The notes beneath the pieces are model-generated. The model worked only from the letters and a program-made list of their open reading frames with translations. It was not told the DNA's origin and did not search any database. Positions 19,506-28,844 of a stretch of 64,000 bases of DNA are shown one piece after another. Within the stretch, counting starts at the first letter, position 1. Each line of letters opens with the position of its first letter. The stretch covers positions 1 through 64,000 of the forward strand of contig JAPPMB010000006.1 in NCBI GenBank assembly GCA_028819255.1, read 5' to 3'. Both the position numbers and the translations under genes were made by a program. The DNA is from Bryobacterales bacterium. Its GTDB lineage: Bacteria > Acidobacteriota > Terriglobia > Bryobacterales > UBA6623.

Positions 19506-20813
19506 ATGGAGGATCGACGCGGCAGGGTCGACCGGCGCACCCTGCTGAAGACAATGAGCGCGGCGGGCGCGACCGCGACAGTGATGTCCGCCTGCGGCGA
19601 CAGCGGGGCCAGCCCGCCGGGAATCGCCGGCGGCGCCTTCAACAAGACGGTAAGGCTTGGCACCGAGGGTCCGGGCGGCCGCAAGGACTGGAGGCCGGGC
19701 TATGCCTTGGAGTTTCTGCCGCCGGAAGACATGCCCGCCGGAGGTGCGGCGTCCAGGACGCTCGCCGGCGAGCCGAAGGAGAGGCTTCTCGACTTCTACC
19801 GGCTGATGAGCACGAGCCGCAAGTGGGAGACGACCATGAAGGATCTCTTCCTTGCCGGCAAGGACGGGCTCTACGGCGCGTTCCACACGTATGTCGGCGA
19901 GGAGGCGGTCGCGGTCGGCGTGATCGGGGCGCTGGCCGAAGACGACTACATTGCCAGCACGCATCGCGGGCACGGGCACCTGATCGCCAAGGGGGGCGAT
20001 CTGAACCGCATGTCGGCGGAGATCTTCTTCAAGGAGTCCGGCTACAACAAGGGCTACGGCGGCTCGATGCACATCACGGACATGTCCAAGGGCATCATGG
20101 GCATGAACGGGATCGTCGGGGCCAGCTTCTACATGGCGGCCGGGGCGGCTCTGCGAGGCATGATCCGCGGCACGAAGCAGGTCGCGGTGGCGTTCTTCGG
20201 CGACGGAGCAGCAGCCTCGCCGTACTACTTCAGCGCGGTGCGAAGCTGCAGGAATCTCAACATCCCCGTCATTTTCGTCAACGAGAACAACTTCCAGTAC
20301 ATGGCGATCCCCGTCGCCGACACGGTGCCGACCAAGTACATATCGGACTACACCAAGGGTCTGGACCTGCCGCACCATCTGGTCGACGGGAATGACATCG
20401 CGGCGGTCTACCACGCCACGAAGCAGGCCGTCGACTGGGCGCGGGCGGGCAACGGGCCCAGCGTGATCGAGGGCCTGACCTACCGCTGGTACGACCACAG
20501 CGGATTCGCCGGAGCCCGGGCCGACACGGACGGGGCAAGCGGGCTCCCGTACCGCACCGACGCCGAAGTCCAAGCCTGGATGACCAGGGACCCGATCCCG
20601 CGGTACAGGCGCTGGCTGGTCTCGAAGGGTCTGGCCGGCGAAGAGGAGCTGGCGCAGATCGAGGCCGAGGCGCAGGCGGCGGTCGACGACTCCGTGACGT
20701 TCGCCCGCGAGGGGCGCGATCCCGATCCGGCCGCCGGCGTCCTCAACACGCATGCTGACGGCGCGGTGCTCGCGAGCCAGTTCTACAACCGCAAGGGCAC
20801 GGTCGCGAGCTAG
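19506..20813 (+). CDS. Thiamine-diphosphate-dependent 2-oxoacid dehydrogenase E1 alpha subunit with Tat-like leader
   Basis: A 435-residue protein. From about residue 85 on it is a standard E1 alpha: it decarboxylates a 2-oxoacid on thiamine diphosphate. GDGAAASPYYFSAV starts at 232 and NENNFQYMA completes the ThDP-Mg motif. HRGHGHLIAKG and KGYGGSMHITD are typical loops. The unusual part is the first 30 residues: DRRTLLKTMSAAGATATVMSACGD carries a twin-arginine motif, a hydrophobic stretch and a lipobox-like Cys30, followed by a Gly/Pro-rich linker. Normal E1 alpha subunits are cytoplasmic. Start is fixed by GGGAGGA nine bases upstream. E1 beta follows 16 bp later, but no E2, E3 or lipoate genes are in the window. 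Confidence 0.88.
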   Translation: MEDRRGRVDRRTLLKTMSAAGATATVMSACGDSGASPPGIAGGAFNKTVRLGTEGPGGRKDWRPGYALEFLPPEDMPAGGAASRTLAGEPKERLLDFYRLMSTSRKWETTMKDLFLAGKDGLYGAFHTYVGEEAVAVGVIGALAEDDYIASTHRGHGHLIAKGGDLNRMSAEIFFKESGYNKGYGGSMHITDMSKGIMGMNGIVGASFYMAAGAALRGMIRGTKQVAVAFFGDGAAASPYYFSAVRSCRNLNIPVIFVNENNFQYMAIPVADTVPTKYISDYTKGLDLPHHLVDGNDIAAVYHATKQAVDWARAGNGPSVIEGLTYRWYDHSGFAGARADTDGASGLPYRTDAEVQAWMTRDPIPRYRRWLVSKGLAGEEELAQIEAEAQAAVDDSVTFAREGRDPDPAAGVLNTHADGAVLASQFYNRKGTVAS

Positions 20814-20829
20814 AGCAGGAGAATCCACC

Positions 20830-21813
20830 ATGGCCAACAAGTCCTACTACTACGCACAGCTCGAGGCCGTCGCCCAGGAGATGCGGGCCGATCCGGAGAT
20901 GGTCTATTACTACGAGTACCAGAAACCCACCACGATCGGGCCCACCGGGGAGGTGTTCGACCTGGTGGGCGAATTCGGCGACCTGCGCACGTCCGGCCGG
21001 GGCTGGCCGATTGACGAGTCGTGGATCGCCGGCGTCGCGATCGGGGCCGCCGCCGCCGGTTCCAAGGCGATCGCCAGGCTGCCCTCGATGGCGCAGATCT
21101 TTGCGATCGAGTTCGTCTACAACCAGGCCGGCAAACTCCGCTCCATGACGGGCGGGCAGGCCAGCATGCCGTTCGTCCTGTGGGTGGACGGTGCCGGCCG
21201 GCGCAGAGGCAGTGCGGGACAGCACACCGATGTCGGGGCGGAGTGCCTCTTTGCGAATCTTCCCGGCATCAAGGTCGTGGCTCCCAGCAACGCCTACGAC
21301 GCCAAGGGCCTGCTCATCTCGGCCATCAGGGATCCCGACCCTGTCGTCTACATCGACTACCCGGAGGTCAAGTCCGGTCGGCAGCCCGATGTCCCGGACG
21401 AGGCCTACGAGATCCCGCTGGGCGAGGCTGTGGTTCGTCAGCGAGGCAGCCAGGTCACGCTCGTCGCCTGGTCGCCGGCAACGGTCGATGCCGCCAGAGC
21501 CGTGGCGGAACTCGCCAAGGCGGGGATCAGCGTGGAGTTCATCGATCCGAGGTCGCTGAAGCCGCTCGACACGGACACGATTGTGGCCTCGGCCCGCAAG
21601 ACGCGGAGGCTGCTGGTCGTCGAGCACGGCCACTACACGGCTGGTTTCGGCGCCCATGTCGTTGCAGAAGTCGCGCAGCTGGTGCCGGGAGTCAGGACGC
21701 GCCGACTCGCGTTTCCGGACGTGCCGGGACCGGGCGCCGCCGGGATGATGACGTGGCTTCGGCCCGACACGCCGAAGATCGTGGACGCGGCGATCCAGTT
21801 GGTGAGGTCCTGA
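20830..21813 (+). CDS. 2-oxoacid dehydrogenase E1 beta subunit
   Basis: A 327-residue transketolase-like beta subunit that completes the alpha2beta2 E1 active site. Motifs seen: GPTGEVFDLVGEFGDLRT, PIDESWIAGVAIGAAAAG, IFAIEFVYNQAGKL and a C-terminal transketolase domain beginning near VPDEAYEIPLGEAVV. Start is ATG at 20830, preceded by AGGAGAATCCACC; upstream frame extension overlaps E1 alpha and is unlikely. There is no leader, in contrast to the alpha subunit. Likely substrates are pyruvate, acetoin or branched-chain oxoacids; the sequence alone does not decide. Confidence 0.9.
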   Translation: MANKSYYYAQLEAVAQEMRADPEMVYYYEYQKPTTIGPTGEVFDLVGEFGDLRTSGRGWPIDESWIAGVAIGAAAAGSKAIARLPSMAQIFAIEFVYNQAGKLRSMTGGQASMPFVLWVDGAGRRRGSAGQHTDVGAECLFANLPGIKVVAPSNAYDAKGLLISAIRDPDPVVYIDYPEVKSGRQPDVPDEAYEIPLGEAVVRQRGSQVTLVAWSPATVDAARAVAELAKAGISVEFIDPRSLKPLDTDTIVASARKTRRLLVVEHGHYTAGFGAHVVAEVAQLVPGVRTRRLAFPDVPGPGAAGMMTWLRPDTPKIVDAAIQLVRS

Positions 21814-22056: not shown

Positions 22057-22079
22057 CTACCGCGTCAGAATTCGGTTAG
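22057..22079 (+). repeat. Left 23-bp terminal inverted repeat of MITE-like element
   Basis: Begins CTACCGCGTCAG and ends TTCGGTTAG. Its exact reverse complement is at 22496-22518. A TA dinucleotide sits at the outer end. Confidence 0.9.
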
Positions 22080-22495
22080 CTCCTGTGGTGCGGGGCGGAT
22101 TTCGGGTGTGGTTTGCGGTGTCATCGGCGGACACTGCCCCCAGTCCTTGGCCCATGCCCGGTTTCGCCACCGCAGTTCTGCATCGCGTCTCTTGCGCCAC
22201 AAGGGCAGCGGATTGAAGGGTTTCCGGCGGTCAAGTTTGGCGAAGGCGTGAGAAGTTGGTCCAGCGTGCCACATAGGAAGCGCACGTAATCGGGGATCGG
22301 GCGACCATGATATCCGAGTATGCCAAATACCGAACAAATCCGGTATACCATGACATTCCAAGGGCGGAAACGAGCGTCCATGGAAGGGAAACAGCCCAGA
22401 ATCGAGGGCTGCCGACGATCCAGCCGCACGAAAATGGCAGAGTATGCCAAACTTGGGTGTGTCTAACTATATCTATATCAACAACTTAGCAGTGC

Positions 22496-22518
22496 CTAAC
22501 CGAATTCTGACGCGGTAG
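22496..22518 (-). repeat. Right 23-bp terminal inverted repeat of MITE-like element
   Basis: Exact reverse complement of 22057-22079, ending GACGCGGTAG. Imperfect matches continue a few bases inward. Confidence 0.9.
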
Positions 22519-22772: not shown

Positions 22773-22824
22773 CGAGGCATTTGATTCCCTTGGAGGAAGC
22801 GCAGCATCAACGAACCGGGTTGAC

Positions 22825-24861
22825 ATGACGAAAGCTCTTACCTTCGCCGAAGACCTCTGCCTGCTCTTGCAGGATAACGCCTCGGGTGACCTCTATCCGC
22901 TCGAGGGGCGGACCTTGGACTTCGGCCTTGCCACCGCGACGTTGCTGGAGCTGGCTCATCATGATCGCATAGACACCGATCTCGACAATCTTCTGCTCGT
23001 CGATCCGACGCCCCTGGACGACCCCATCGCTGATCCCGCCTTGGCCCTGATCGCGGGAAACTCGGAGACCCTTAACCCAGGAATCTGGATCCGTCGCATA
23101 GGGTTGCAGTTGGGCTCGCAGATACTCGACGCGGCCCTAAACCGCCTGTGCGAGCGGGGCATTCTGGAACGGGATCCCGGCGACAACTTCTTTCTGAGCC
23201 CCGTCGTGGCGCACGCGAAGCGCTATCCCGGCGTGGAGGGGGACAGCGCGGAAGAGGTCAAGGTGCGCGTCATGCGGATTCTCTTCCGCGAGGAGATCCC
23301 CCATCCGTGGGAGGCCGACCTGATCGGTCTCGCCTCCGCCTGCCGCGTATTCGAGAAGGTGCTGAGCCCACGGGAACTCGACTGCGTGGACGCGCGGGTC
23401 GAAGAGGTTGAGTCGCTGAATCTCCTGTGCCGAGCAGGCCGCATCGCAATCGACGAGGACTTGGAGGCGAGCCGGATCGCCCCACAGCAACGGTACAAGC
23501 CGATTCCCAAGGCGCCGGGGTTGCCGTTACTGGGGAACGCCCTAGGCATGACCGGCGACCTGAACGCTTTCTTTACCAAGCGTTATCGTCGACACGGGCC
23601 CATCTTTCGCATTCGGTTGCCGGGACGTCGCATCGTCGTCTTGGCCGGCCGGGAGGCGAATTCCTTTGTGCTTCGGCACGCCCGCACGCACTTGCGCTCA
23701 AACCGCGAGTTCAGCGGATTCTGCCGGGCCATGGAGACCGATCGCGCCATGATATCGATGGACGGTGCGGATCACGTGAGGCTCAGGCGCGTGGCTCAGG
23801 CGGGTTACTCGCGGGCGGTCATCGAGCGTGACATAGACCAGGCGATCAAGATAGCCCGGCACCATGTGTCCTCCTGGTCCGTGGGACCACGGTTGCGGGC
23901 ATTTGAGACCATACAGCGGATCGTAACCGAGCAGGTGGGCGTTCTGGCAACGGGCCTGCTGCCTCGCGAATACTTCGAAGATCTCAAGTACTTCTTCGAT
24001 TCGTTGGTTTTTACCGTCCGGCGCGACCGTCCCCGGTTCATGTACGCGCATCGCATGCCCCGGGTGAGGGGCAGGATCCGGGAGCTCTGCGCGAAGGTGG
24101 TCGAGTTGCACCATCCCGACCTCCGGAAGGGATGCCCGCATGACGTCGTCGACGCCTTCTTGGAGTTGCACCGCAAAGATCCGCAATTCCTGCCCGAAAC
24201 AGACCTCATGTCCGCCATGGTCGGGCCGTATATTGCAGCCATGGATACCGTGGCCGGGACGCTGAGCTTCGCTGTGCTGAGGCTTTTCTCCGAACCCGGG
24301 TACTTGGAGATGCTCAGGGCCGAGGCGGACGCGCTGTTCGCAAACGGCATGCCCAACGCCAGGGACGTTCGCGCATTGGCCAACACCCATGCCTTCGTAA
24401 CTGAGGCGCTTCGCTGTTATCCGACCGTGCCGGTGATGATGCGCACCGTTTGCAACGGCTTTGAGTTCCAAGGGCATTGGGTTCCCGCCGGAACCTCGCT
24501 CATGGTCGCGACCACGGTGGTTCACAGGGATCCCGAGCACTACCCGGATCCCGACCGTTTTGAGATCGAACGGCACCTTCCCCCCCGCAAGGAATCAAAG
24601 CAGAGGGGTGCGTTTGCTCCGTTCGGCATCGGGCCGCACACCTGCTTGGGCGGCGCGTTCGCTCAAGTGCAAATGGCCACGGTCATCGCCACGATGCTGC
24701 GCTATGGGGAGTTCGAGCGCGACCCCGCGCCCGAGGACGGCGTGATCCGAGCCACGGGCTATCCTTCGTATCGTCCGCACCGCCAGGTCGGATTCCGTCT
24801 CGTCCGCCGCAGAAACGAGGTCCGGACGCGTGGCTCGACCGAACCGGAGGCCCAGTCATGA
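22825..24861 (+). CDS. GPP34 (GOLPH3-like) domain fused to cytochrome P450
   Basis: A 678-residue two-domain protein. Residues 1 to about 215 match the GPP34/GOLPH3 fold: LTFAEDLCLLLQDNASGDLY, TLDFGLATATLLELAHHDRI, VDPTPLDDPIADPALALI, a WIRRIG helix, LNRLCERGILE and RYPG. In eukaryotes this domain binds phosphatidylinositol-4-phosphate at Golgi membranes; bacterial copies have no proven ligand. Residues about 235-660 are a cytochrome P450: I-helix AAMDTVAG (Asp474, Thr475), ExxR at Glu527/Arg530 (TEALRCYP), and the haem loop FGIGPHTCLG with ligand Cys607. It hydroxylates a hydrophobic substrate with electrons from an unidentified redox partner. Start is ATG at 22825 because the GPP34 fold begins there; GGAGGAA lies about 30 bases upstream. 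It overlaps the next gene by 4 bp. Confidence 0.88.
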   Translation: MTKALTFAEDLCLLLQDNASGDLYPLEGRTLDFGLATATLLELAHHDRIDTDLDNLLLVDPTPLDDPIADPALALIAGNSETLNPGIWIRRIGLQLGSQILDAALNRLCERGILERDPGDNFFLSPVVAHAKRYPGVEGDSAEEVKVRVMRILFREEIPHPWEADLIGLASACRVFEKVLSPRELDCVDARVEEVESLNLLCRAGRIAIDEDLEASRIAPQQRYKPIPKAPGLPLLGNALGMTGDLNAFFTKRYRRHGPIFRIRLPGRRIVVLAGREANSFVLRHARTHLRSNREFSGFCRAMETDRAMISMDGADHVRLRRVAQAGYSRAVIERDIDQAIKIARHHVSSWSVGPRLRAFETIQRIVTEQVGVLATGLLPREYFEDLKYFFDSLVFTVRRDRPRFMYAHRMPRVRGRIRELCAKVVELHHPDLRKGCPHDVVDAFLELHRKDPQFLPETDLMSAMVGPYIAAMDTVAGTLSFAVLRLFSEPGYLEMLRAEADALFANGMPNARDVRALANTHAFVTEALRCYPTVPVMMRTVCNGFEFQGHWVPAGTSLMVATTVVHRDPEHYPDPDRFEIERHLPPRKESKQRGAFAPFGIGPHTCLGGAFAQVQMATVIATMLRYGEFERDPAPEDGVIRATGYPSYRPHRQVGFRLVRRRNEVRTRGSTEPEAQS

Positions 24862-26138
24862 TCGACGGCCCCGAGGCCATCACCCCCCGGTGGCTTGCCG
24901 AGGCGATCGTTCCCCAAGGCCCTGCTCGGCGGCGGAGCCGGGGAGGCATTGAATCGGTCCATGCGCGGGAGATAGGCACGGGAGTCGGGCAACTCAGTCG
25001 CATATTCCGGGTCGAAATCAGCGGGGGGGAGGACTTTCCGGCCAGCGTGGTGGTCAAGTTGCCCAGCGACGATCCGCAGGCCTTCCGCATGTGTCGGCGG
25101 ATGTCGCTTTATCGGCGCGAGTTCCTCGCCTACCGGCGCGTGACTCCCGCACTCGGAGTGGAGACGCCGAGCCTGCTTTTCGGTGCATTCGACATGCGCA
25201 CACATCGCTTCGTACTCGTGCTGGACGATGTGGCGAACTGGTGGGACGGCCAGGCCCGCGGAAGAGACCAGCTCCAAGGAGCCGACGCAAGCGAGGCGCG
25301 GCTGGCCGCCCGCGCGGCCGCCGACATTCACGCACCCTTCTGGGACCGGACGGACCGGACCATCGTGCGGCGCTACGGGGGCGGATCGGAGTCGCGGGTC
25401 GCGCAAGCATCATCCGAGCACACCCTGTCGGGGTTCAGGGAGATCTTTCGCCCTCTCGTCAGATGGGCTCTTCAGTTCGTATACGTGAAGAGCCTCCCTG
25501 TTGCCCACGCCCGGTTTCCCGAAGCCTTCGGCTCCCGTCACCGCGAGCTCGCCTCTGCGTTCGGTCCGCTCGTGGCGGCTCAGCTTGCCGCCGCGTCCTC
25601 CGGCCCGAAGACCTTCATTCACGGTGACTACCGGCTTGACAACATGTTCTTCTCTCCGCGCGAAGACGGGCGTTTCGCGATCGTCGACTGGCAGGCTGCC
25701 GCCACCGGGTGCGGCCTCTACGATCTGGCCTACTTCGCATGCACCAGCGTGAGACGCGCCTCGCGGCCGAGGATCGAGGGGGAGCTGCTGGAGGAGTATC
25801 ACGGCCGGCTCCGCGCGCTGGGCGTCCGCGATTTCAGTATCGAGGAGTGCCGGGTGCTTTACCGCGCGTCGGTGCTCGCCTGTCTCGTCCGGCAGGTGAT
25901 CGTGGCGGGCTCGGCGAACCTCGACCACGAACGGGCGCATCGGTTGGCCCGGACCTGTCTGAGACGCACGCTCCACGCGATCGACGGCGTCGACGGCTGG
26001 GCGCACATCGCTTCCGCCGGGCGGAGCTCGGCCATGGGCTGGGCCGTCACCCGGCTGGCGCATCACGTGGCGACGCGAAGCTCGGCCGGAGGGCGCACAC
26101 AGGCCGGGCCGGGCCGACGAAGCGTCGGTTCGCGTTAG
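24858..26138 (+). CDS. APH/ecdysteroid-kinase-like small-molecule phosphotransferase
   Basis: A 426-residue kinase of the aminoglycoside-phosphotransferase/ecdysteroid-kinase-like fold. The catalytic loop HGDYRLDN is at 255-262 (catalytic Asp257, metal ligand Asn262), and the metal-binding motif VDWQ has Asp277. The N-lobe shows VVVKLPSD, with the ATP-binding Lys. These enzymes transfer phosphate from ATP to hydroxyl groups of small molecules; in insects the close EcKL family phosphorylates ecdysteroids. The gene starts inside the last codons of the P450 gene (ATGA overlap), so it is translationally coupled. It could equally be a kinase for a hydroxyl that the P450 has just made. The C-terminal about 45 residues are basic and low-complexity. 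Confidence 0.85.
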   Translation: MIDGPEAITPRWLAEAIVPQGPARRRSRGGIESVHAREIGTGVGQLSRIFRVEISGGEDFPASVVVKLPSDDPQAFRMCRRMSLYRREFLAYRRVTPALGVETPSLLFGAFDMRTHRFVLVLDDVANWWDGQARGRDQLQGADASEARLAARAAADIHAPFWDRTDRTIVRRYGGGSESRVAQASSEHTLSGFREIFRPLVRWALQFVYVKSLPVAHARFPEAFGSRHRELASAFGPLVAAQLAAASSGPKTFIHGDYRLDNMFFSPREDGRFAIVDWQAAATGCGLYDLAYFACTSVRRASRPRIEGELLEEYHGRLRALGVRDFSIEECRVLYRASVLACLVRQVIVAGSANLDHERAHRLARTCLRRTLHAIDGVDGWAHIASAGRSSAMGWAVTRLAHHVATRSSAGGRTQAGPGRRSVGSR

Positions 26139-26169
26139 TCGATCACATTGCATTTGGGAATTCACTACT

Positions 26170-27291
26170 ATGACTCGGGCTCAGCGAGAAGAATTCAATC
26201 CGATGTCGATGGCCCCTCTGCGTGTTTGGCTGCGGCTTCTCGCCAAGGCGGGCGGCGTGAAGCATCCCTACCGAGCCAGACTCAGGCAGGCACTCATCAC
26301 CAGTCTGATCACGACCATTCCGCGCTGGCTGGAATGGGCTTTGTACGGCCTGCCAGTCGCGCGTACCCGAATCACCAAGCCCCCTATTATCATCCTCGGC
26401 TTTCCGCGCTCGGGCACGACTTTCCTCCATAATCTCCTGGCGCACGATCCCAACTTGGGCTATTGCTCCAACTATCAGGCCGCGATTCCATTCTGTCTGG
26501 TTGGCGGGGAGCGCTTGAAGAAGAAGCTGGCGTCCCGGGTGCCCGAGAATCGGGGCATAGACAACGTGGCTGCCGATTTGGATCTGCCCCAGGAAGAGGT
26601 CTTCGCGCTCGCGATGCATTCGCATCGTTCGGTCGCGCACGGGTTCACCTTCCCCTCGCTGAGGGAAGAACTGCACCGGAAGTACGTACTCATGGAGGCC
26701 AGCGACGCCGAGGTTCGCGCATGGCGCAGGGGATACATGAAGGTCGTAAGAAAGGCAACCTACATGCACGGCGGCAAGCGAGTGGTTCAGAAGGCCACTC
26801 CGAATCTCGGACGACTCCCCCGGATCATGGAAATGTTTCCGGGGGCTTACTACATACACATCGTTCGCAATCCCTACGATCTTTATCCGTCGTACATGCA
26901 CATGCTGTCCACGCTGACCAGGTCGTATGCCATGGAGGAGTATGATCCGGCCGAGTTGGAGGCCGGGGCCGTCCGCATGTACCAGAGAATCATGCGGAAC
27001 TACCTGAGGGACCGATCATCTATTCCGTCCGACCGTTTCATCGAGATTCGCTTCGAGGATTTGCGCGGGGAGCCGATTGGGGAGATCGGGCGGATTTACC
27101 GAAGCTTTGGCCTCAACTGGGAGAGAGCCGAGCCCCCGATCGCGGAATACGCGGCCACGCTCTCGTCGTACAAGCAGAACCGGTACGAGCCCGATCCCCG
27201 CGTGCGCGAGCAGGTCGATGCGCACTGGAAATTCGCGGTCGATGAGTGGAACTACGGCTCGTCGCCATCCGAGACCCGTACCGTGCCATGA
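26170..27291 (+). CDS. PAPS-dependent sulfotransferase
   Basis: A 373-residue sulfotransferase. The 5'-phosphosulfate loop PRSGTTFL is at 79-86 (PIIILGFPRSGTT) and the 3'-phosphate loop region HIVRNPYDLYPSY is seen at about 233-245 (RNPYDLYPSYMHM). It moves sulfate from PAPS to hydroxyl or amino groups of lipids, sterols or sugars. The enzyme is soluble or peripherally bound; no signal peptide. It lies 31 bp after the kinase and overlaps the exporter gene by 4 bp. Together with the P450 and kinase it provides a second conjugation chemistry. ATG at 26170 is used; an internal ATG at 26203 is a possible alternative. Confidence 0.88.
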   Translation: MTRAQREEFNPMSMAPLRVWLRLLAKAGGVKHPYRARLRQALITSLITTIPRWLEWALYGLPVARTRITKPPIIILGFPRSGTTFLHNLLAHDPNLGYCSNYQAAIPFCLVGGERLKKKLASRVPENRGIDNVAADLDLPQEEVFALAMHSHRSVAHGFTFPSLREELHRKYVLMEASDAEVRAWRRGYMKVVRKATYMHGGKRVVQKATPNLGRLPRIMEMFPGAYYIHIVRNPYDLYPSYMHMLSTLTRSYAMEEYDPAELEAGAVRMYQRIMRNYLRDRSSIPSDRFIEIRFEDLRGEPIGEIGRIYRSFGLNWERAEPPIAEYAATLSSYKQNRYEPDPRVREQVDAHWKFAVDEWNYGSSPSETRTVP

Positions 27292-28844
27292 CCAGCGGGA
27301 GGATGAGTCACGGGCAGCCGCAACGGGTGCTCGGAGGGACGATGGCCGCACTTTTTCTCGCGGCGTTCGGGAACACCATTGTGGCCACCCTCCTGCCCAC
27401 GATCATCGCCGACCTGGGAGGCTTCGAGCTCTACGCCTGGCCCTCGACCGCGTACATGGTCACGTCAACGACCGCCCTGCCGATCGCGGGGAAGCTGGGC
27501 GATCTGTACGGGCGCAGACCGGTCTTCCTGTTCGGCGTCGCCGCGATCACGATCAGTTCGCTGCCGGTCGCGCTGAGTCAGAGCATGGACCAACTCATCC
27601 TGTTTCGCGCCATCCAAGGGATTGGGGGGGGCGCGATCATGGTGACCAGCATAGCGGCAGCGGGCGACCTCGCGCCTCCCGAGGAGCGGGGGAGGTATCA
27701 CGGAATCGTCGGCGCGGTGTTCAGCCTCGCCGCGTTGGCGGGTCCGCTCGTCGGCGGATTCATCATCGATCACTTTCATTGGCGCTGGGCATTTCTGATT
27801 AATCTGCCGTTGGGGATGGTGGTGTGGATCATGCTCGCGGGCGGCTATCCGCATCCGTCGGGGCAGGGAGAGGAGCGGCTCCGAGTCGACTATCCGGGCA
27901 TCGCCCTGCTGGTCGTGGCCACCATATCTTCGCTTCTCGCACTCTCGGCGGCAGGCGTTCTGTATCCGTGGGGATCCCCGGAGATCCTGGGTTTGCTGGC
28001 TCTCGGCGCGGTTGCGGGCGGCCTCCTTCTCGTCGTGGAATCCCGGTCCTCCCATGCCATCATTCCGCTGGGCATCTACCGGATCCGGACGGTGGTTGTT
28101 GCGCTGGCGGTCAGCTTCCTCACCGGATTTGTTGTTTACGGCAGCATCCTCTTCATCCCTCTCTTCTTTCAGGCGGTGCAGGGAACCTCCGCCGGACGGA
28201 GCGGTGCCCTGCTGGTTCCAGTCACCTTCGGCATCGTGACCGGCGCCGTGCTCTCGGGGCGGCTGCTATCCCGCTCCGGCGGACGCTACTACGTGCATGC
28301 GCTGTGGAGCACTGCGCTGGCTGCGGCGGGAATGTTCCTGCTCTCCACCCTCAACCCCGAGACCGGTCTTGCCGCCGCCGTCGCCCGCATCTTCACGCTG
28401 GGCGTCGGGATCGGTGGCGTGATGTCGATCTTCACGGTGGCGGTGCAGAACACGGTGGCTAGCCGCGATCTCGGCGCGGGCACCTCGACCTTGCAGTTCC
28501 ACAGGGCTGTAGGGGGCACGGTGGGCATCGCCATCATGGGAGCCGTGGTCGCCCAGCGCACCAGATCGAGACTCGGCGACCTCCTGCCCAAGACATCCGG
28601 CGCCCAGCTTCCGGAGGGGTGGTTCGAGTCGGCAATGGGTGCGGGCACACCCATCGTTTCGGGACCCTCGGCGGGCACCGGATTGGCGGATGCTGTCGCG
28701 GACCACTTCACCCACGCTCTCGCGGGTGCCCTCGGCGAAGCCTTTGCGTTGGCCGCCGCGGTCGCAGGCCTTTCGCTGGCTGCAACGTTGTTCCTCCCAC
28801 GGCGGTCCAAACCGCCGCACTCCGTTTCGCTGCCTCCATCGTGA
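27288..28844 (+). CDS. DHA2-type MFS drug/metabolite exporter
   Basis: A 518-residue proton-driven exporter of the 14-helix EmrB/QacA (DHA2) class. Motif A, GKLGDLYGRRPV, is at about 68-79 between helices 2 and 3; motif C AGPLVGG is seen at about 146-152. Two segments after residue 170 add the extra helix pair of this class. It is probably the exit route for the product of the preceding enzymes. It starts at the ATG overlapping the sulfotransferase stop codon by 4 bp, so it is the fourth gene of the operon. Substrate unknown; DHA2 pumps export drugs, dyes, bile acids and lipophilic conjugates. Confidence 0.9.
   Translation: MTSGRMSHGQPQRVLGGTMAALFLAAFGNTIVATLLPTIIADLGGFELYAWPSTAYMVTSTTALPIAGKLGDLYGRRPVFLFGVAAITISSLPVALSQSMDQLILFRAIQGIGGGAIMVTSIAAAGDLAPPEERGRYHGIVGAVFSLAALAGPLVGGFIIDHFHWRWAFLINLPLGMVVWIMLAGGYPHPSGQGEERLRVDYPGIALLVVATISSLLALSAAGVLYPWGSPEILGLLALGAVAGGLLLVVESRSSHAIIPLGIYRIRTVVVALAVSFLTGFVVYGSILFIPLFFQAVQGTSAGRSGALLVPVTFGIVTGAVLSGRLLSRSGGRYYVHALWSTALAAAGMFLLSTLNPETGLAAAVARIFTLGVGIGGVMSIFTVAVQNTVASRDLGAGTSTLQFHRAVGGTVGIAIMGAVVAQRTRSRLGDLLPKTSGAQLPEGWFESAMGAGTPIVSGPSAGTGLADAVADHFTHALAGALGEAFALAAAVAGLSLAATLFLPRRSKPPHSVSLPPS

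Follow-up and report, generated by a model that had tools for sequence, protein, structure and literature searches.

We read four adjacent genes on the forward strand of the window, a stretch of 64,000 nucleotides from a Bryobacterales bacterium, as a horizontally mobile operon from symbionts of marine invertebrates whose products modify a polycyclic triterpenoid, with a sterol as the likeliest candidate, and give this reading a probability of roughly 0.55. That the four genes constitute a real operon and a cassette is almost certain. It is very probable that the products jointly perform oxidation, sulfation or phosphorylation, and export of a lipid, and a sterol or another triterpenoid is the probable substrate.

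The first gene (22825..24861) codes for a GPP34-P450 fusion protein of 678 amino acids, assigned by Pfam, motif alignment and an AlphaFold2 model. It is followed by genes for an EcKL-type small-molecule kinase (24858..26138, 426 amino acids; PF02958, 58.9 bits), a sulfotransferase of the Sulfotransfer_3 family (26170..27291, 373 amino acids; PF13469, 127.9 bits) and an MFS exporter of the DHA2 family (27288..28844, 518 amino acids from the ATG at 27288; MFS_1, 162 bits; EmrB model TIGR00711, 239.0 bits against a cut-off of 230.2). An ATGA at 24858-24861 overlaps the stop codon of the fusion gene with the start codon of the kinase gene; a second ATGA at 27288-27291 connects sulfotransferase and exporter in the same way and sets the exporter start. 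Kinase and sulfotransferase genes are separated by a 31-bp gap (26139-26169). The initial annotation had described four open reading frames with two 4-bp overlaps and one 31-bp gap, and all of these coordinates as well as the assignment to P450, kinase, sulfotransferase and MFS families were borne out. A sequence scan of the operon detected no internal promoter-like site, and terminator-like sites were rarer than in shuffled sequence. Together with the gene overlaps, these results support the earlier claim of a single operon, and the four genes are predicted to be read as one transcript. No Rfam RNA was present in the window. An origin of the cassette from a defence system or a phage was rejected on the basis that there was no PADLOC match and that the single PHROG match was limited to the MFS protein.

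The initial annotation had regarded the first gene product as a P450. The P450 domain is indeed present (residues 229-634, 23509..24726; PF00067, about 188 bits), but the fusion to an N-terminal GPP34 (GOLPH3-like) domain had been omitted. This domain spans residues 8-203 (22846..23436) and was matched by PF05719 with 102.6-104.6 bits (E 3.7e-29 at 102.6 bits; curated cut-off 29.1). A profile built from 29 rows of the N-terminal region retrieved the structures of human GOLPH3 and yeast Vps74; the GPP34 part as a single-sequence query found no relative in the PDB. Human GOLPH3 has four residues, W81, R90, R171 and R174, which we take to be those that bind PI4P. In the profile alignment the window protein has alanine in the R90 column, serine and leucine in place of R171 and R174, and a residue other than tryptophan in the W81 column. 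A PI4P-binding role of the GPP34 domain is thus unsupported. Bacterial GPP34 proteins such as SCO4440 (PMC12402492) share the GPP34 fold with GOLPH3, Vps74 and the window protein; the fusion to a P450 distinguishes the window protein.

All relevant P450 motifs of the fusion are intact, namely the haem-ligand Cys607 (FGIGPHTCLG), the ExxR motif at 527-530 (EALR) and the acid-alcohol pair of the I-helix (DT in AMDT). The AlphaFold2 model of the fusion has a pLDDT of 86.9 and a pTM of 0.82. CYP51s are the solved P450s closest in sequence, and CYP184A1 and CYP51 were on top of the fold search, which is a weak clue because the identity amounts to only 23-24%. The CYP51-ferredoxin protein of Methylococcus capsulatus is likewise a sterol-type bacterial P450 in a fusion and is one of the closest solved proteins in both sequence and fold; however, its partner is a C-terminal ferredoxin instead of an N-terminal GPP34 domain, and the identity is about 23%. 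No redox partner is encoded within the operon. Searches of the open literature for GPP34 with P450 gave no report of a GOLPH3-like plus P450 architecture, and those for sponge symbionts with P450, sterol and sulfotransferase returned nothing relevant.

The two conjugating enzymes likewise have intact catalytic motifs. The kinase has intact HGDxRxxN and DWQ motifs, and H255, D257, N262, D277, W278 and K67 are invariant in four homologues, with L093, L101 and L146 as alignment partners (L numbers denote loci of our comparison). Its profile score, the EcKL motifs and the ATP-binding lysine K67 agree with the ecdysteroid-kinase-like fold that had been claimed before. In the sulfotransferase the PRSGTT loop is intact and R80, G82, T83, T84, R233 and S241 are invariant in 11 homologues; R233 and S241 are the residues that bind the 3'-phosphate. 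A supply of PAPS in the cell is indicated by an APS kinase encoded on contig C59 of the window's own genome. Domain content and intact catalytic motifs support the oxidation-conjugation-export logic that the initial annotation had proposed.

According to the initial annotation, its reading would be refuted if the four genes were not kept together in related genomes. The outcome is split: taken alone, the family would refute it, but across a phylum border the quartet is kept together. In a comparison of 18 genomes of the family (the window's genome and 17 relatives), the kinase was found in none of the 17 relatives, and a sulfotransferase with 42% identity in three other family genomes. Fusions are present in most members of the genus, with the other cassette genes not adjacent; the exception is G402, in which one sulfotransferase adjoins the fusion. 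In contrast, all four genes in the same order are present in L093, a locus on the complete chromosome of an uncultured Latescibacteria member (OX638377.1). Window and L093 share one blastn alignment of 5990 bp (22817..28805 on the forward strand) with 88.9% DNA identity, sharp borders and unrelated flanks. This identity starts 8 bp 5' of position 22825 and so supports the start codon of the fusion. The 1,981 aligned codons are free of gaps, and dN/dS values of the four genes are 0.28, 0.39, 0.14 and 0.33. That a second phylum has the same four genes in unchanged order is more than chance, and the intact copy between unrelated flanks, the absence of insertions or deletions and the low dN/dS values (0.14-0.39) indicate that the genes move together and that selection acts on them as a unit. 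As judged from these sequences, the simplest account would be that the whole block passed from one phylum to the other, or reached both from a third donor, and that each gene then came under purifying selection.

The upstream region shows two peculiarities. About 300 bp 5' of the cassette and outside the block shared with L093 there is a MITE-like element of 462 bp (22057-22518) with perfect terminal inverted repeats of 23 bp, of which diverged partial copies (66-78%) are found on other contigs. Further upstream (19506-21813) are genes for both E1 subunits, alpha and beta, of a dehydrogenase of the pyruvate/acetoin type; at the N terminus of the alpha subunit an extension begins like a twin-arginine signal (RRTLLK), which is odd for a cytoplasmic enzyme.

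A scan with one genome per species yielded 548 relatives of the fusion, of which the best 80 were kept. In 79 of these 80 the match extends over both domains; in L146 it covers the P450 part only. They come from metagenome-assembled genomes of at least eight phyla, with Acidobacteria, Gemmatimonadetes, Latescibacteria, Proteobacteria, Chloroflexi, Acidimicrobiia, Bacteroidota, Binatia, Truepera and others in the record titles. Many isolate codes look like those of sponge projects (RHO, COS, IRC, APA, SB06xx) or of a coral project (Plut); read from these codes, the related fusions are apparently mostly from sponges. The sponge reading is supported by the presence of Palauibacter rhopaloidicola among the fusions listed (PMC8163846, PMC10469786). 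Among 399 genomes of the window's class, only a few genera have matches of near-full length, and the other matches mostly cover the P450 part alone; a search of 396 genomes of its phylum found full-length fusions in the window's genome and in three other genera. In-frame TGA codons in some homologues were considered as recoding and rejected, as they are normal stops just before the end of the alignment. In a tree of 86 rows, the window's fusion falls into a clade of 37 (clade A), and the other 49 rows form clade B; SH-aLRT support is 100% on both sides. Clade A retains the haem-cysteine and ExxR motifs and mostly the acid-alcohol pair of the I-helix, which clade B has lost by a one-residue deletion. 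Clade-B fusions such as L053, L055, L129 and others lack this pair but have the haem cysteine and the ExxR motif, and may perhaps not be ordinary monooxygenases. The window's own genome has a second, broken GPP34-P450 copy (L040:481-1571, G000:C75) with the GPP34 part and the P450 start in different frames and the remainder missing; three sulfatase-like genes follow.

The gene neighbours of the best 80 of 548 fusions were counted for 34 clade-A and 46 clade-B loci. A sulfotransferase adjoins the fusion in 13/34 clade-A but 0/46 clade-B loci (p 2.9e-6), and a Rieske gene in 0/34 versus 32/46 (p 2.1e-11); both p values are too small, since related loci were counted as independent. Acyltransferase-3 genes (8/34 versus 0/46) and kinase genes (three of 34 loci) also adjoin clade-A fusions, and an enzyme that caps hydroxyl groups with sulfate, acyl or phosphate is a common theme of this clade (23/34). 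At L095:12010-13500, between the fusion gene and its sulfotransferase gene, an acyltransferase-3 domain is joined to ankyrin repeats. Fusion and sulfotransferase diverge together (Mantel r 0.76 without L093). Five clade-A loci have a squalene-hopene cyclase (SHC) next to the fusion, in the order SHC, fusion, sulfotransferase at L116 and L120-L122 and fusion, SHC, sulfotransferase at L136. At one locus, L114, genes for PAPS synthesis are in the same run (CysD, CysNC, fusion, sulfotransferase), and L101 has the order kinase, exporter, fusion, sulfatase and a second sulfatase-like gene. Sterol methyltransferase genes adjoin the fusion in 16/46 clade-B and 0/34 clade-A loci; the clade-B neighbours comprise Sterol_MT_C proteins, KshA_C or KshA-type Rieske oxygenases and transporters with a sterol-sensing domain. 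In the same genus as the window, L090 combines a clade-B fusion with squalene epoxidase, an oxidosqualene cyclase (OSC) and an MMPL protein that contains a sterol-sensing domain, and L089:7086-12849 encodes a fusion, an SdmB-like reductase, a steroid 5-alpha-reductase, a KshA-type Rieske protein and an RND pump, a possible steroid-modifying cluster. Steroid and triterpenoid genes dominate the recurrent neighbours of the 80 fusions, which independently favours the sterol, hopanoid or terpenoid substrate suggested by the initial annotation.

We assume the following sequence of events. The fusion protein would hydroxylate the lipid, with the GPP34 domain as a presumed membrane or docking module; the kinase and the PAPS-dependent sulfotransferase would then cap hydroxyl groups with phosphate and sulfate, and the DHA2 exporter would remove the amphiphilic product. 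The order of the steps and the formation of a product rather than detoxification are assumptions of this model. A role in which a hydrophobic toxin from the sponge or from symbionts nearby is inactivated and exported, with no dedicated product, appears unlikely to us, even if the succession of phase I, II and III functions, the EmrB/DHA2-type exporter, the patchy occurrence and the transfer between phyla would fit. The operon also contains no sterol, triterpene, cyclase or other skeleton gene, cyclases being found only beside related fusions, and the Latescibacteria host has no triterpene cyclase. However, relatives of the first and third gene are part of runs with a cyclase or PAPS synthesis, which resembles production, and acyl groups also serve as caps.

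The origin of the lipid separates two further possibilities. Tailoring of the cell's own hopene or diplopterol to a sulfated hopanoid is suggested by the five SHC-containing clade-A loci and by the SHC of the window's genome, but this SHC is on a different contig from the cassette, and neither SHC nor OSC was found in the complete Latescibacteria chromosome, which lowers the case for a purely hopanoid substrate; we consider it improbable. Since the near-identical cassette cannot use a triterpene of the cell's own in the Latescibacteria host, we favour a sterol obtained from elsewhere; this host probably acquires the lipid, perhaps from the sponge. The Latescibacteria genome has an isolated sterol methyltransferase gene, and none was found in the window's genome. 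Several points speak against a sterol: the window operon without a sterol gene, its genome with SHC and without sterol methyltransferase, the occurrence of the full quartet in only two genomes among the matches listed, which form a long branch of their own, and the location of the sterol-rich neighbours mostly in clade B, the sister of the window's clade. Moreover, a very long reading frame for a type I PKS immediately precedes the gene of a 42% sulfotransferase relative in two genomes of the same genus (L087:1-10500 and L088:8922-19901; G379 and G401), PKS sulfotransferases are among the solved relatives of the sulfotransferase, and the best NCBIfam matches of the P450 are sesquiterpene oxygenases, far under cut-off. 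A polyketide or a class I terpene alcohol in place of a triterpenoid is nevertheless hardly probable, as the recurrent neighbours of the 80 fusions are mainly of the steroid and triterpenoid type and no PKS family recurs among them.

The cassette can be compared with known systems. In mycobacteria the CYP128-Stf3 operon for sulfomenaquinone employs a P450 and a sulfotransferase to oxidise and sulfate a lipid, as proposed for the pair in the window, but the substrate is menaquinone and kinase, GPP34 domain and exporter are absent. Steroid gene clusters of Ircinia symbionts (PMC9531527) and the functional sterol methyltransferases of sponge symbionts (PMC10070321) belong to the same kind of host and to sterol genes that move between phyla, and sterol methyltransferase is shared with the neighbours of clade-B fusions. 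These clusters lend plausibility to the class of the precursor. Unlike the window cassette they represent ERG24-CYP51-OSC biosynthesis, and a same-genus genome encodes CYP51 as a gene of its own; the main texts of both papers contain no GPP34, no sulfotransferase and no description of the fusion family. Sponges contain phosphorylated sterol sulfates, the haplosamates (PMC10384810), which carry both groups expected from the cassette. We hypothesise that haplosamates are candidate products, the decoration being in line with kinase and sulfotransferase, although haplosamate A carries a methyl phosphate and the cassette is without a methyltransferase. At its widest, the idea would be that the GPP34-P450 fusions form a so far undescribed family of enzymes in symbionts of sponges and corals, spread over many phyla and dedicated to sterols and triterpenoids of host or symbiont, with GPP34 docking at the membrane and the cassette making haplosamate-like phosphorylated sterol sulfates from an acquired sterol; we regard this as speculative and rather improbable in its entirety.

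The GPP34 fusion, the distribution among marine-invertebrate symbionts and the link to PAPS genes go beyond the initial annotation. The GOLPH3-like plus P450 architecture is unreported as far as the open literature searched is concerned, and the operon crossed phylum boundaries intact, with purifying selection acting on it, which would be in keeping with a benefit inside the host. The cassette provides concrete genes for the question of which partner of the sponge holobiont is responsible for making or modifying the sulfated and phosphorylated sterols and triterpenoids found there, and chemists could use it to test whether symbionts produce the unusual sulfated or phosphorylated sterols of sponges.
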